Shown: positions 44,335 to 48,724 of the stretch, piece after piece
Position numbering within the stretch: the first letter of the stretch is position 1
How the letters are laid out: every line of letters starts with the position of its first letter
DNA from: Pseudothermotoga elfii DSM 9442 = NBRC 107921
GTDB lineage: Bacteria > Thermotogota > Thermotogae > Thermotogales > DSM-5069
Direction of reading: 5' to 3'
Length of the DNA stretch: 64,000 nucleotides
Assembly (NCBI RefSeq): GCF_000504085.1
Contig: NC_022792.1
Span: forward strand, 868,001 to 932,000
Notes under the pieces: generated by a model
The model's input: the letters and a program-made list of their open reading frames with translations, nothing else
Database searches by the model: none
What the model was told of the DNA's origin: nothing
Program-made: the position numbers and the translations under genes

Positions 44335-45009
44335 CTATGAAGAAGACAGTTTTCTGAGTATGACTTTTGCCCTCTCGCAGTTGATATTTTCCGAAAAGAG
44401 GTCATGAACTTTTTTAACGGATAAATTTGAGAGCACAGGGGAAAAACTCAAACGGTGAAAAACAGTAGGACCAAATTCCCGAATAGCATTTAAGTGATGA
44501 ACTGTTCCATAACCTTTGTGCTTTGAAAAGCCATAACATGGGTAAATTCTGTCGTATGCAACCATTATTCTGTCTCTCAAAACTTTTGCAACAATTGACG
44601 CTGCTGCTATTGAAGCACTTTTTTCATCACCCTTAACAATACAGACGCCCTGCTGAGAAAGATTTAATGATTTGCCATCCACAAGTACGTATGCATCTTT
44701 TTTATTCAGAGATGCCAGAGCTCTGTTCATAGCTATTTTGGTTGCATTGAATATGTTGTAGAGATCTATTTCTTCAGGTGTAGCAATGCCAATTCCAACC
44801 TCAGCTGAATTCATTATCTGCAAAAATAATTCTTCGCGTTTTTGCGCAGTTAACTGTTTTGAGTCAAACACGTCTAATTGAACTTCTAAAATTACCGCTG
44901 CCGCAACAACAGGACCAGCAAGACAGCCTCTACCTGCCTCATCAACACCGATCACAGTACCAAAATTCTGTTTATAAAATCTGTCGTATGCGAAAAGTTC
45001 AGATCTCAT
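44335..45009 (-). CDS. rnhB: Ribonuclease HII
   Basis: Removes RNA from RNA-DNA hybrids and single ribonucleotides from DNA. The catalytic Asp-Glu is in VIGVDEAGRGCLAGPVVAAAVIL (DEAGRG); other acidic residues are in FDSKQLTAQKREELF, YVLVDGKSL and ASIVAKVLRDRIM. The C-terminus contains GYGTVHHLNAIREFGPTVFHR. At 224 residues it is full length. It overlaps the upstream ATP-grasp gene by 11 bp and is the last gene of that operon. Confidence 0.96.
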   Translation of the reverse strand: MRSELFAYDRFYKQNFGTVIGVDEAGRGCLAGPVVAAAVILEVQLDVFDSKQLTAQKREELFLQIMNSAEVGIGIATPEEIDLYNIFNATKIAMNRALASLNKKDAYVLVDGKSLNLSQQGVCIVKGDEKSASIAAASIVAKVLRDRIMVAYDRIYPCYGFSKHKGYGTVHHLNAIREFGPTVFHRLSFSPVLSNLSVKKVHDLFSENINCERAKVILRKLSSS

Positions 45010-45916
45010 AGTTTTCTATGGCGTCCATGAAAATTTTCATAATCAGATCTTCATAAGTGTATCCTGCTGCCTCTGCCATTTTCACGATATCAGAATAACC
45101 TGGCGTAAGCATAGGGAGAGAATTGACTTCTAAAAAATAGATTTGACCATCCTTAACGCGCAAATCCATTCGTGCATAATTTCTTAGTCTCAGTGCTTTG
45201 AAAGCTGTTAAAGCATATTCTGAGATTCTGTCTTTTAGCCCCGTATCTATTTGAGCCGGACAAATATACCTGGTTTGTTCTCCATAATAATGTTTAACCC
45301 TGTAGGAATAAAATCTCTCCAATCCGTCGGGCAATGTTGAAAAATCTATTTCAAGGATGGGTAAAATTTCCCCGGCAACAATTCCAACACTGAATTCGCG
45401 ACCATCTACAAATTGCTCGATCAAAGCTGGTTGATGAAACTCGTTGTGAATCACTTTGACAGCCTTTTTTAATGCAAAATCTTCTTTGACGACCGAATCT
45501 GCACTCAAACCACGCGCGCTTCCTTCACGACTTGGTTTGACGATGACCGGATAAAAGTCTATAGGAGGTATTGTTTCCTGTCCTGGTTCTAAGGAAATAA
45601 ACTTTGGTGTTGGTACGCCATAATGATTCAAAATAATCTTTGTAATTGTTTTGTCTATGCACAAGGCATGTCCAATTATGCCCGAGCCAGTAGACGGTAT
45701 CTTTAAAAGTTCTAAGATCGCAGGGACGTGGGTTTGCATTGCAGCTGTTGAAAGATTGAAGACCGCGTCGAATTGAGTTACTTTGTCAATAAATTGATCT
45801 TCAAAAGCCACAAGCTCTGCTTCAAAGTGTTTTGATAAGGTTTCAAATACGGATTGAACCATCTTTTCTCTCGATTCATCGAGATTGGACTTATCGTAAA
45901 CAACAGCCACTCTCAT
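44999..45916 (-). CDS. ATP-grasp ligase, D-alanine-D-alanine ligase-like
   Basis: 305 residues with an ATP-grasp fold of the Ddl type: DKTITKIILNHYGVPTPKF (start of ATP-grasp), PVIVKPSREGSARGLS (phosphate-binding loop), ALIEQFVDGREFSVGIV, and YARMDLRVKDGQIYFLEVNSLPMLTPGYSD with the magnesium-binding Asp, Glu and Asn. The N-terminal domain lacks the GGxSxERExS-type opening of housekeeping Ddl and instead begins MRVAVVYDKSNLDESREKM. It may therefore join other amino acids. It overlaps the B12-protein gene by 4 bp, which suggests a shared pathway rather than simple cell-wall synthesis. Confidence 0.82.
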   Translation of the reverse strand: MRVAVVYDKSNLDESREKMVQSVFETLSKHFEAELVAFEDQFIDKVTQFDAVFNLSTAAMQTHVPAILELLKIPSTGSGIIGHALCIDKTITKIILNHYGVPTPKFISLEPGQETIPPIDFYPVIVKPSREGSARGLSADSVVKEDFALKKAVKVIHNEFHQPALIEQFVDGREFSVGIVAGEILPILEIDFSTLPDGLERFYSYRVKHYYGEQTRYICPAQIDTGLKDRISEYALTAFKALRLRNYARMDLRVKDGQIYFLEVNSLPMLTPGYSDIVKMAEAAGYTYEDLIMKIFMDAIENYEI

Positions 45917-47547
45917 ATTGATCTACCCCCGAGCAGAGTAAACAACCTTTCCTTTTCTGAAAGAATATTTCCACCTTCATCTACGCATCTGCAGAGACCA
46001 TCTATTATTTTGGTTTTCACAGCACCTTTCGCCACTGAAAAACCCTTTAATGCCGGTGCATCCAGAATGCCTGTATTCACAGCTTCATACAGCACATCGA
46101 CATCGAGCAAACTATCTTCATTGCCATCTTTTAATCCTTTTATTGCTTCAATTATCATGAAAGCTTCTTCTTTTATTCTCTCTTTCTCTTTTTTCACCCA
46201 TTCATCACCAAGAGGGTCTACAATGCCTCTCATTGCAAGATTTATAGCTCTCCTTGCCATTTTGACACTTTCTATTATTTCTTTTGCAGAGGCTCTTCTC
46301 ATCGATTCACAGTATGCAACCACATGAACTATGTGTGGTTCAAGTGCCCATCCATAAAACATGGATGAAGATAACTGCCCCATAGCCGCATTTAAATCTG
46401 CCGGCATGGACATTAAACCTGTTCTCACCATTCTATAGATTTTGAAATTCTCATCCTGCAAAGATTCAACAATTTCTTTCTTCGCTATCATTTTTGCAAT
46501 GTCTCCGCGTGGTGACAGGCCCGAAGGAGTTTCAAGCATAAACTGCTGAACATACTCCCTCACTCCTAACTTCTTAGCCACAAAAGTTGCTAAATAAGCA
46601 GTTGCGACTTCTACAGCATCGTGGCAAACCCTTAAAGCCCATTGATGAGAATCGGTAACTTCGACTGGAACATTGTTCAAACCATTCCATTTTATAGCGT
46701 CCATATTTTCTTTTATGGCTTCTTTCAGTGGTCTTTTTGATCTTCTATCCAGATCACTGTACCACATTATCGGTATTGCAGCCCAGGCGTTGTTTATTGT
46801 TTCTTTCAGTAGTTTGGAAAATTCTACCATGTGCGTTGTTCCTGCATAGCATCTAACAAGCGGATAATTGCCTCTTCTCGAGGCCTCGTAGAGTTTGACA
46901 AAATCCTCTTTTGTTCTTATCGGCGCACCACCTGCACCATCTTGCGAATGATCCATTTTTTCAGGTTCAAAGAAGAATTGCTGACAATTTTGGTCTGGTG
47001 CAAGAGATATAACATCGAGCAATTCTGATTCTGCCAATTTTTTAATTTCATTTGCCGTTTCATCCAGGCTTTGCAAACCAATATGATGTCTGATAAGTGG
47101 ATAAGGACTTTTGAATTTTATGCGCTCACCAAGTGTTTGTGGAAAACTCAGATTCTCTTTTTCTCTTGCCTTACCTCTTAAGAAAAGAACAATTTCGTCT
47201 ATTTCTTCACTCCCGTCAAAACATTTCTTTATAAACGAAAATTTTCTCGCCTCGTTTGCAGTTTCTATGGTGCCACCAAAGACGAATATCTTGTCCATAA
47301 GTTTTTCCTTTTTAAGCTTCTCTTCCAATTCTCTGAGCAGATTGTGTAAGGCTTCTGCGGCAAGTCGGTAGCTCATTGCTATCATATCTGGGTCATGTTT
47401 TTTGATCTCTCTGACAAGTTCATCAACAGGAATGGCTGAACCAATATAAATTGTTTCGTAATTGTTTTGCTTTGCTATTTCAAGAAAATTTAGCAATCCT
47501 ACATTATGCACGCAACTTCCTATAGAAGCTCCCAGTATTTTCATCAT
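45913..47547 (-). CDS. Cobalamin-binding protein of unknown function, mutase-like
   Basis: 544 residues. The first 130 form a B12-binding domain of the base-off/His-on type: GASIGSCVHNVGLLNF gives HxxG with His14, MSYRL fits the SxL position, and VFGGT supplies the GG. The opening resembles lysine 5,6-aminomutase and ornithine aminomutase B12 domains (GTDAHTVG), as I recall them. The remaining 400 residues could be a catalytic barrel (DVISLAPDQNCQQFFFEPEKMD, AIPIMWYSDLDRRSKRPL, FMLETPSGLSPRGDIAKM, MRTGLMSMPADLNAAMGQL-like) but match no family I can name. It overlaps the opine-dehydrogenase-like gene and the ATP-grasp gene by 4 bp each. The cobalamin call is good; the reaction is unknown. Confidence 0.75.
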   Translation of the reverse strand: MMKILGASIGSCVHNVGLLNFLEIAKQNNYETIYIGSAIPVDELVREIKKHDPDMIAMSYRLAAEALHNLLRELEEKLKKEKLMDKIFVFGGTIETANEARKFSFIKKCFDGSEEIDEIVLFLRGKAREKENLSFPQTLGERIKFKSPYPLIRHHIGLQSLDETANEIKKLAESELLDVISLAPDQNCQQFFFEPEKMDHSQDGAGGAPIRTKEDFVKLYEASRRGNYPLVRCYAGTTHMVEFSKLLKETINNAWAAIPIMWYSDLDRRSKRPLKEAIKENMDAIKWNGLNNVPVEVTDSHQWALRVCHDAVEVATAYLATFVAKKLGVREYVQQFMLETPSGLSPRGDIAKMIAKKEIVESLQDENFKIYRMVRTGLMSMPADLNAAMGQLSSSMFYGWALEPHIVHVVAYCESMRRASAKEIIESVKMARRAINLAMRGIVDPLGDEWVKKEKERIKEEAFMIIEAIKGLKDGNEDSLLDVDVLYEAVNTGILDAPALKGFSVAKGAVKTKIIDGLCRCVDEGGNILSEKERLFTLLGGRSI

Positions 47548-48623
47548 TCCCCAACCTCCATAATTTGCTTCACTTCTTCAACTGTTTTACCATTTAAATG
47601 AAGCCTTTCAAAGTTTCTCCCCTCACTGAAAAAATCCACGCCAACCATGAGGGAGGCAAGCTGGACTATAGAATCTATTATGGGAGTTTTCACTTTCGCT
47701 AATTTCCCAAATGCGGAAATCGGAACAAGGCTTGTTGGAACATCTTCCAGTATATATCTGTTCTCGAGGCTTGTTGGTGCCTGTATACCTCGATACCCCT
47801 CGTTATTGTGTATAGCATCGTACAAATTTGTCCCTTTCACATCATAAGCATATGCAAGCCATTGAATAGCCGTCATCGGTTCAATACCGAATTTTCTGGC
47901 GACCTCACATCTTTCAGCGTCTATCGCTTCAAGAATTTTTGCAACCGATGGACTGATCCCTTCGAAATAAAATTCAAATTTTCCGAAGGTGGTTTCTACC
48001 CATCCGGTGTTCAAAATAATTGTTGCAGGGTGAAACACGGCACCTATGTTGTTAAAACTTGTATAAAGGGTGCTTGGAGCAATTTCAAACTCGGGCATGA
48101 CTTGCGATAAAACCTGTTCTAATTCGGGATTTTTGCTTGAAGGAAGTGCGGCAACCGGTACAGCATTTTTGATCCTGAATATCTTTACCACTCCTGGATT
48201 GGATGCTCTCGAAGCAAAAATAAATGTTTGGGTTTCAGCTACCACTATATCCTTGTTGACGCCTTCTTCTTTGAGTGTATTATAGAATTCGAGAGCTCCC
48301 GCTGTTCTTCCTGGATTCAAAATTATAACCTGGCCATTTTCTAAAAGTGGAGCTATTTTTTTCGCTATATCTCTATGGGCAAAAGCGGGTAATACAACCA
48401 TCAAAAGTTTTCGACCTTTAATTGCTTCAGAAAGATTTGTCGTGGCAAATGAGATAGTTGCGACGGCATTTATTTCTCCTTCAACTTTTATCCTCTTGTT
48501 TTTTATAATAGGTGCTATTCGCCATGCGCTTCGGTTATAAAGCGCGACATCGAATCCTTTTAATGCCAAGTACGCAGCCAGCGCCTGGCCACCGTTCCCA
48601 GCACCAATCACGCATATCTTCAT
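47544..48623 (-). CDS. Octopine/nopaline (opine) dehydrogenase family protein
   Basis: 359 residues. The N-terminal Rossmann domain has ICVIGAGNGGQALAAYLALKGFDVALYNRS and VVLPAFAHRDIAKKIAPLL. The C-terminal opine-dehydrogenase domain includes NNIGAVFHPATIILNTGWVE with the expected catalytic His and DAERCEVARKFGI. Known members reductively join an amino acid amino group to a 2-keto acid, or run the reverse. It is the first gene of an operon with a B12-dependent protein and an ATP-grasp ligase, behind a good promoter. The amino acid and keto acid cannot be read from the sequence. Confidence 0.88.
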   Translation of the reverse strand: MKICVIGAGNGGQALAAYLALKGFDVALYNRSAWRIAPIIKNKRIKVEGEINAVATISFATTNLSEAIKGRKLLMVVLPAFAHRDIAKKIAPLLENGQVIILNPGRTAGALEFYNTLKEEGVNKDIVVAETQTFIFASRASNPGVVKIFRIKNAVPVAALPSSKNPELEQVLSQVMPEFEIAPSTLYTSFNNIGAVFHPATIILNTGWVETTFGKFEFYFEGISPSVAKILEAIDAERCEVARKFGIEPMTAIQWLAYAYDVKGTNLYDAIHNNEGYRGIQAPTSLENRYILEDVPTSLVPISAFGKLAKVKTPIIDSIVQLASLMVGVDFFSEGRNFERLHLNGKTVEEVKQIMEVGE

Positions 48624-48680
48624 AAAAAAACCTCCTTTTGCTGATAAAAATGGAAGTTTTGACGGCTGGAATAAAAATCT

Positions 48681-48695
48681 GCATCTGCTGATGCC
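48681..48695 (-). other. Small hairpin at the start of the opine-dehydrogenase leader
   Basis: On the minus strand GCATC-AGCA-GATGC begins within a few bases of the expected transcription start of the operon. It is too short to be a cobalamin riboswitch and may simply stabilise the 5' end of the mRNA. The whole leader is about 65 bases, and I see no B12-box-like element in it. Confidence 0.4.
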
Positions 48696-48724
48696 ATTTT
48701 ATCAAATTGTCCCTTTGAAGTCAA
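48696..48724 (-). promoter_or_regulatory. Promoter of the opine dehydrogenase-B12-ATP-grasp operon
   Basis: On the minus strand TTGACT (48724-48719) and TAAAAT (48701-48696) are 17 bases apart, a strong match. It lies 73 bases before the ATG at 48623 and marks the opine dehydrogenase gene as the first of the operon. Confidence 0.78.

Follow-up and report, generated by a model that had tools for sequence, protein, structure and literature searches.

An opine dehydrogenase paired with a glutamate mutase E-like B12 protein: a candidate mutase family of anaerobic bacteria

Introduction

What does a bacterium make, or break down, with an opine dehydrogenase, a cobalamin-binding protein and a Ddl-like ligase encoded in one operon? 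The question is raised by a 64,000-nucleotide stretch of the Pseudothermotoga elfii DSM 9442 = NBRC 107921 genome (contig NC_022792.1, positions 868,001 to 932,000), here called the window. An earlier note on this DNA had described the three genes and suggested a pathway in which an amino acid is rearranged by B12 chemistry, reductively linked to or released from a keto acid and ligated to another amino acid. The arrangement was reproduced from the open reading frames: the genes for the opine dehydrogenase (ODH), the B12-dependent mutase-type protein (MUT) and the ligase lie on the minus strand, and the ODH/MUT and MUT/ligase junctions overlap by exactly 4 nt each. The features concerned are the following.

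47544-48623, minus strand: ODH gene, 359 aa, NAD(P)-binding Rossmann N-terminus followed by a PF02317 helical domain
48030-48032, minus strand: codon of ODH His198, invariant in 96 of 96 relatives
47742-47744, minus strand: codon of ODH Asp294, invariant in 96 of 96 relatives
45913-47547, minus strand: MUT gene, 544 aa, N-terminal cobalamin-binding domain and glutamate-mutase-E-like barrel
47218-47547, minus strand: MUT cobalamin-binding domain, about residues 1-110 (PF02310 match to residues 3-100; HxxG, SYRL and FGG)
47506-47508, minus strand: codon of MUT His14 in the HxxG motif (His14 and Gly17 present in 117 of 117 sequences)
46048-47145, minus strand: MUT barrel domain, about residues 135-500, closest in fold to glutamate mutase E
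44999-45916, minus strand: gene for a Ddl-form ATP-grasp carboxylate-amine ligase, 305 aa (PF07478, 115.5 bits), without the Ddl N-terminal substrate-binding motif

Full-text literature searches for the combination or its parts found no published description of an ODH-MUT-ligase system, as the earlier note had surmised. Enzymes of these kinds have been described before, and the novelty lies in the mutase family and in the combination.

Results

ODH and MUT are paired across phyla

Genome comparisons showed that MUT nearly always occurs together with ODH. In Thermotogota, MUT was found in 65 of 103 genomes and ODH in the identical 65, with both genes in one cluster every time; losses were also shared, even within genera and among close relatives. 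Among 299 Bacillota-A genomes, sampled at a requested completeness of at least 90%, all 64 genomes with MUT also encoded ODH, while 25 had ODH alone and 210 had neither (Fisher p=5.6e-45). In this sample 61 of the 66 MUT copies had an ODH gene no more than 2.5 kb away in the same orientation. Scanning one genome per species recovered 514 relatives, the best 80 of which provided the cross-phylum loci used throughout; their hosts were Clostridia, Bacteroidales, Deltaproteobacteria, Armatimonadetes, Phycisphaerae and others. ODH lay near MUT in 67 of these 80 loci. Four of the remaining 13 end at contig ends, and the nine genomes with a lone MUT away from contig ends all encode ODH elsewhere. Such grouping greatly exceeds chance and supports the view that ODH and MUT are one functional unit with a near-obligate pairing. 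The gene-neighbour comparison called for in the earlier note was therefore passed strongly by this pair. The Ddl-like gene did not hold as a fixed third member: other carboxylate-amine ligases replace it, and many loci have none nearby.

These distributions bear on the idea that the three genes form an accidental housekeeping operon of a single lineage, in favour of which one could cite the clearly unrelated rnhB gene in the same operon. Co-occurrence and adjacency in Thermotogota, Bacillota-A, Bacteroidales and other groups make this explanation so improbable that we give it almost no credence. For ODH-MUT it is refuted by the cross-phylum adjacency; for the ligase, accidental association may apply in some genomes.

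Further genes accompany the pair at individual loci. In an Aminicenantes metagenome-assembled genome (MAG; L133:1394-4170), ODH and MUT are separated by two genes for PmbA/TldD-family metallopeptidases. Clostridiaceae MAGs (L085, L087, L094, L101) carry a FAD amine-oxidase-like gene and a DUF2298 membrane protein gene as a conserved pair downstream of MUT. In an operon that also holds ODH and asparagine synthase, MUT is followed by a fumarase-family (fumarate hydratase) gene (L103:9964-10803).

The B12 protein has a glutamate mutase E-like barrel

The N-terminal B12 motif read in the earlier note was confirmed: residues 3-100 of MUT match the B12-binding domain PF02310 (48.5 bits), and HxxG (His14/Gly17), SYRL and FGG are all present. 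His14, Gly17, Arg61, Leu62 and Gly92 are invariant in up to 119 sequences, and the Asp of the DxHxxG motif is Cys in the window MUT and several relatives and Asp in other relatives. The C-terminal part, which had been left unassigned, proved assignable, weakly by sequence and clearly by fold. Residues 311-525 matched only half of the glutamate mutase E model PF06368, scoring 26.8 bits against a cut-off of 26.6 and about 753 for true GlmE. No NCBIfam model covered the whole protein, and neither Pfam nor NCBIfam has a model dedicated to this family. A search for plasmid carriage gave zero matches in 72,556 plasmids. Foldseek analysis of the AlphaFold model (mean pLDDT 91.6) returned glutamate mutase E as the top PDB match (1cb7_B, E=7.8e-17, TM 0.59/0.66; 6h9e_B, E ~1e-16), followed by lysine 5,6-aminomutase (KamD), ornithine aminomutase (OraE) and methylmalonyl-CoA mutase, a ranking that places the MUT barrel in the isomerase-superfamily fold. 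The fold comparison suggested in the earlier note thus upheld a radical-mutase type, but the closest relative is the carbon-skeleton enzyme GlmE and not the pyridoxal phosphate (PLP)-dependent aminomutases KamDE and OraE. A PLP aminomutase reading was rejected on the weaker fold match and the missing PLP lysine: the position in the MUT B12 domain (LEIAKQNN) that a PDB alignment sets against DIKHGG of OraE has no conserved Lys.

A profile alignment of MUT with two true GlmE sequences spanned 377 columns (E=9e-4), at about 15% identity to GlmE. GlmE Gly68 and Glu330, the latter presumably with an adenosine-binding role, align with the invariant Gly157 and Glu414 of MUT. The three arginines R66, R100 and R149 align with His155, Gln189 and Tyr234 of MUT; on two of the strands MUT has an arginine (R153, R232) two residues upstream of the aligned position. 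In glutamate mutase these three form an arginine claw that binds the substrate carboxylates, and Gly68 helps to hold adenosine (PMC10947579). R153 and R232 would be on the same strand face as the missing claw arginines. Invariant in 119 MUT sequences were R153, H155, Q186, Q189, R232, Y234, D267, R269, E296, H301, R306, K352, R375, H408 and E414. This pattern suggests an acid-binding pocket at the same general place as in GlmE, for a different substrate. As R100, which serves the distal carboxylate in glutamate mutase, is replaced by an invariant Gln, plain glutamate is disfavoured as a MUT substrate, although this is not decisive.

MUT could nevertheless be a divergent one-chain glutamate mutase that converts glutamate to 3-methylaspartate, with ODH using 3-methylaspartate or glutamate. 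Its top fold match, the weak PF06368 hit and a fusion to MutL in two genomes (see below) speak for this. Glutamate mutase (GlmES/MutES, with the reactivase GlmL/MutL) and MUT both combine a B12-binding Rossmann domain with a barrel, and the Gly68 and Glu330 positions are kept. We consider a divergent glutamate mutase improbable, given the low identity, the displaced claw and the coexistence of MUT with true GlmE and GlmL in Acidaminobacter and with true GlmE in a Firmicutes genome. Unlike glutamate mutase, MUT is a single chain with the B12 domain first, and its partner is an opine dehydrogenase where glutamate mutase has methylaspartate ammonia-lyase.

MUT is predicted to depend on adenosylcobalamin

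In two loci (L172:2306-6007 and L173:1739-5383) MUT is fused to MutL, from the family of glutamate mutase reactivases (PF13941, 276 and 273 bits), in one protein of 1,210-1,230 aa, and these fusions sit beside a distant ODH. In two rumen Clostridia a CobO/BtuR adenosyltransferase gene immediately follows MUT on its 3' side (L107:3113-3607 and L115:5197-5691). Together with the fold, the MutL fusion and the adjacent CobO/BtuR make adenosylcobalamin radical chemistry very likely, and MUT is very probably an adenosylcobalamin mutase, as judged from sequence and structural models. The contrary view, with the B12 domain acting in methyl transfer or sensing and the barrel as a methyltransferase or regulator, draws on the observation that the B12 domain alone best matches corrinoid methyltransferase proteins by sequence. 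It is very improbable, since the barrel of both MUT forms matches adenosylcobalamin isomerases first, a MutL reactivase is fused and an adenosyltransferase is a neighbour at some loci, and methyl-donor genes are not conserved near MUT.

Neither helper was retained as a regular partner. The distribution of MutL in Thermotogota does not track MUT; CobO is widespread beyond MUT genomes, and some MUT genomes have no PF02572 match. As the genome of P. elfii itself lacks the MutL family, a separate MutL would not be required in this organism.

ODH retains the residues of an active opine-type dehydrogenase

The identification of the first gene as an opine dehydrogenase with a catalytic-type His in the FHPATIILNTG block was borne out. 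ODH matches Octopine_DH (PF02317) at 162.8 bits, and its closest solved relative is N-(1-D-carboxylethyl)-L-norvaline dehydrogenase of Arthrobacter (1bg6), aligned over its full length (E=5e-77). His198, in the FHPATIILNTG block, and Asp294 align with His202 and Asp297 of 1bg6, which we take to be the catalytic residues. Because both match 1bg6 and never vary among the relatives, ODH is predicted to be an active opine-type dehydrogenase, which would join an amino acid reductively to a 2-oxo acid. It differs from 1bg6 and the rest of the octopine dehydrogenase family in being linked to a B12 mutase. One relative (L117:6301-7971) has an N-terminal PTS EIIA domain (PF00359, 56 bits), which suggests that this enzyme is under phosphotransfer control.

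Two mutase forms occupy the same operon place

A second MUT form of 634 aa, about 30% identical to the window MUT, was found in the same operon place. Its AlphaFold model (pLDDT 86.7) also had GlmE as the top Foldseek match (E=4.7e-11), and two members matched no Pfam family above cut-off, PF06368 included, and no NCBIfam model. The two forms have been exchanged. In a genome of the same family as the window host (G057, locus L048), ODH and ligase are 80% and 64% identical to those of the window and the mutase is the 634-aa form; this mutase is closest to Clostridia and the ODH to relatives of the window. Conversely, L178 has a 544-aa-type mutase beside an ODH of the kind otherwise paired with the 634-aa form. 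[Clostridium] ultunense encodes an ODH-MUT544 pair (L183:5135-7887) and a separate lone MUT634, and related genomes (L155, L158) have ODH at the same place without MUT544, together with the lone MUT634. As the mutase form was swapped while ODH was retained, the two forms would, most simply, both serve one and the same ODH step. The swaps probably account in part for the moderate mirror-tree correlation between MUT and ODH (r=0.40, Mantel p=0.001).

The ligase is an exchangeable partner

The window ligase is an ATP-grasp enzyme of Ddl form with the ATP-site motifs of Ddl, and it fell below the curated Ddl cut-offs (TIGR01205, 153.9 vs 245.65 bits; NF002378, 169.4 vs 243 bits). Ddl models leave its first ~35 residues unaligned, its alignment to known Ddl structures (E. 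coli-type) begins only at residue 63, the GGxSxE motif is missing from the N-terminus (MRVAVVYDKSNLDESRE), and 21 relatives share no conserved position before residue 53. A true Ddl was rejected on the cut-offs and the missing motif, in agreement with the earlier description of a Ddl-form ligase without the usual N-terminal motif. The genome of the window has two further Ddl-like genes.

A Ddl-like ligase was found near ODH-MUT in 13 of 20 mapped Thermotogota loci and in some Clostridia. Other ligases take its place elsewhere: the 80 cross-phylum loci included PylC/CPSase-like ATP-grasp proteins (18), ATPgrasp_Ter (2) and asparagine synthase (4), and one Bacillota genome has a Mur ligase near the pair. 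The five kinds share only ATP-dependent activation of a carboxylate, usually to join it to an amine. The third gene is thus an exchangeable partner whose ligase type varies. PylC-like ligases were accompanied by a DegT aminotransferase, a bacterial sugar transferase, glycosyltransferases or a flippase; by their predicted functions, these neighbourhoods have the layout of surface-polysaccharide clusters.

Discussion

A proposed biosynthetic pathway and its alternatives

The data point, strongly, to an adenosylcobalamin-dependent MUT and to MUT and ODH catalysing consecutive steps on one metabolite, and moderately to synthesis rather than breakdown. MUT would represent a new radical-isomerase family, a relative of glutamate mutase that combines the two subunits in a single chain, and ODH would couple an amino acid with a 2-oxo acid reductively. 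Their joint product would be a carbon-skeleton-rearranged opine-type (N-carboxyalkyl) amino acid, made either by rearrangement of the amino acid before coupling or by rearrangement of the finished opine. An ATP-dependent ligase, here the Ddl-form enzyme, would then activate one carboxylate of the product for coupling with an amine; in polysaccharide clusters this would probably be an amino sugar, through its amino group, and in Thermotogota an amine of some kind. That the three enzymes form such a biosynthetic unit is a tentative reading, to which we give a little less than an even chance. An even chance seems right for a hitherto undescribed pathway in which MUT rearranges an opine or its amino acid precursor to new branched N-carboxyalkyl amino acids, attached by diverse ligases to cell-surface sugars or other amines, and which would include a new mutase reaction. 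The pathway first suggested for these genes survives in its radical-mutase and opine dehydrogenase parts; its amino acid acceptor gained no support, and the gene context in many relatives favours an amino sugar in a surface polysaccharide.

Attachment of the ODH-MUT acid to an amine is proposed because of the kinds of ligase, their polysaccharide-cluster context and known amide-linked opines in O-polysaccharides. We know of no B12 mutase in connection with the opine-decorated O-polysaccharides of Providencia. Alanopine is carried on 4-amino-4,6-dideoxyglucose in the O-polysaccharide of Providencia alcalifaciens O35 and N-epsilon-(1-carboxyethyl)lysine occurs in that of P. rustigianii O14; in such polymers an amide bond joins either the opine to an amino sugar or the opine to a uronic acid (all cited in PMC10609480). 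The logic of mutase, amide ligase and dehydrogenase recalls pyrrolysine synthesis by PylB-PylC-PylD, and in many relatives the ligase begins with a PylC-like domain. PylB belongs to the radical-SAM enzymes and is not related to MUT, and PylD is not an opine dehydrogenase.

Several observations weigh against this biosynthetic reading. No ligase was nearby in 50 of the 80 cross-phylum loci (30 had one) or in 7 of the 20 mapped Thermotogota loci, the genome of the window has no MutL, and the substrate cannot be read from the MUT sequence, in which the claw arginines of GlmE are missing at the aligned positions. Some contexts look catabolic: in the MUT-MutL subgroup an oligopeptide-type ABC importer is encoded next to ODH and the fusion, on the upstream side and in the same orientation (L172), and an M20 amidohydrolase and an amino-acid-type ABC transporter, as read from their sequences, stand beside lone MUT genes (L070, L072, L075). 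Hosts are also mostly anaerobic fermenters. The pair could then form a catabolic unit, in which an opine, N-alkyl amino acid or peptide is imported and cleaved oxidatively by ODH and MUT rearranges the freed amino acid for fermentation, the ligases being coincidental or belonging to other routes. We regard this as unlikely, if the most serious competitor, because ties to five amide-forming kinds of ligase and to polysaccharide clusters arose repeatedly and independently, and no degradative enzymes are conserved beside the pair in the 20 mapped Thermotogota loci.

Known adenosylcobalamin mutase reactions are few and a new one is seldom added. The MUT family occurs in about one fifth of the sampled Bacillota-A and two thirds of Thermotogota, and its wider hosts include rumen and gut anaerobes; the gene set is common to hundreds of anaerobic bacteria and is without its own model in the protein-family libraries searched. 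The tight tie to ODH limits the candidate substrates of MUT, and the reaction could be tested with just two purified enzymes. Should the product be a decoration of surface polysaccharides, it would account for a B12 need of such bacteria and define a new class of glycan substituent.

Surroundings of the operon

A riboswitch was sought as a substrate clue: the window had no Rfam match, and 20 related loci gave just tRNAs and one sRNA family. Two further features frame the three genes.

48696-48724, minus strand: promoter-like site 5' of ODH, TTGACT-17-TAAAAT with extended TG
44335-45009, minus strand: RNase HII-like gene (rnhB, named from a sequence motif), overlapping the ligase gene by 11 nt

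The operon had been placed behind one strong promoter. One good site (48724-48696) was indeed found upstream of ODH, but the scan of the region gave 13 matches where 12.2 were expected by chance, so that a promoter there is plausible and weakly supported. Since the ligase stop overlaps the rnhB start by 11 nt, the operon has at least four genes. In the mapped loci rnhB also adjoins the ligase gene in L056 and does not do so in more distant Thermotogota; it is probably a passenger unrelated to ODH, MUT and the ligase.

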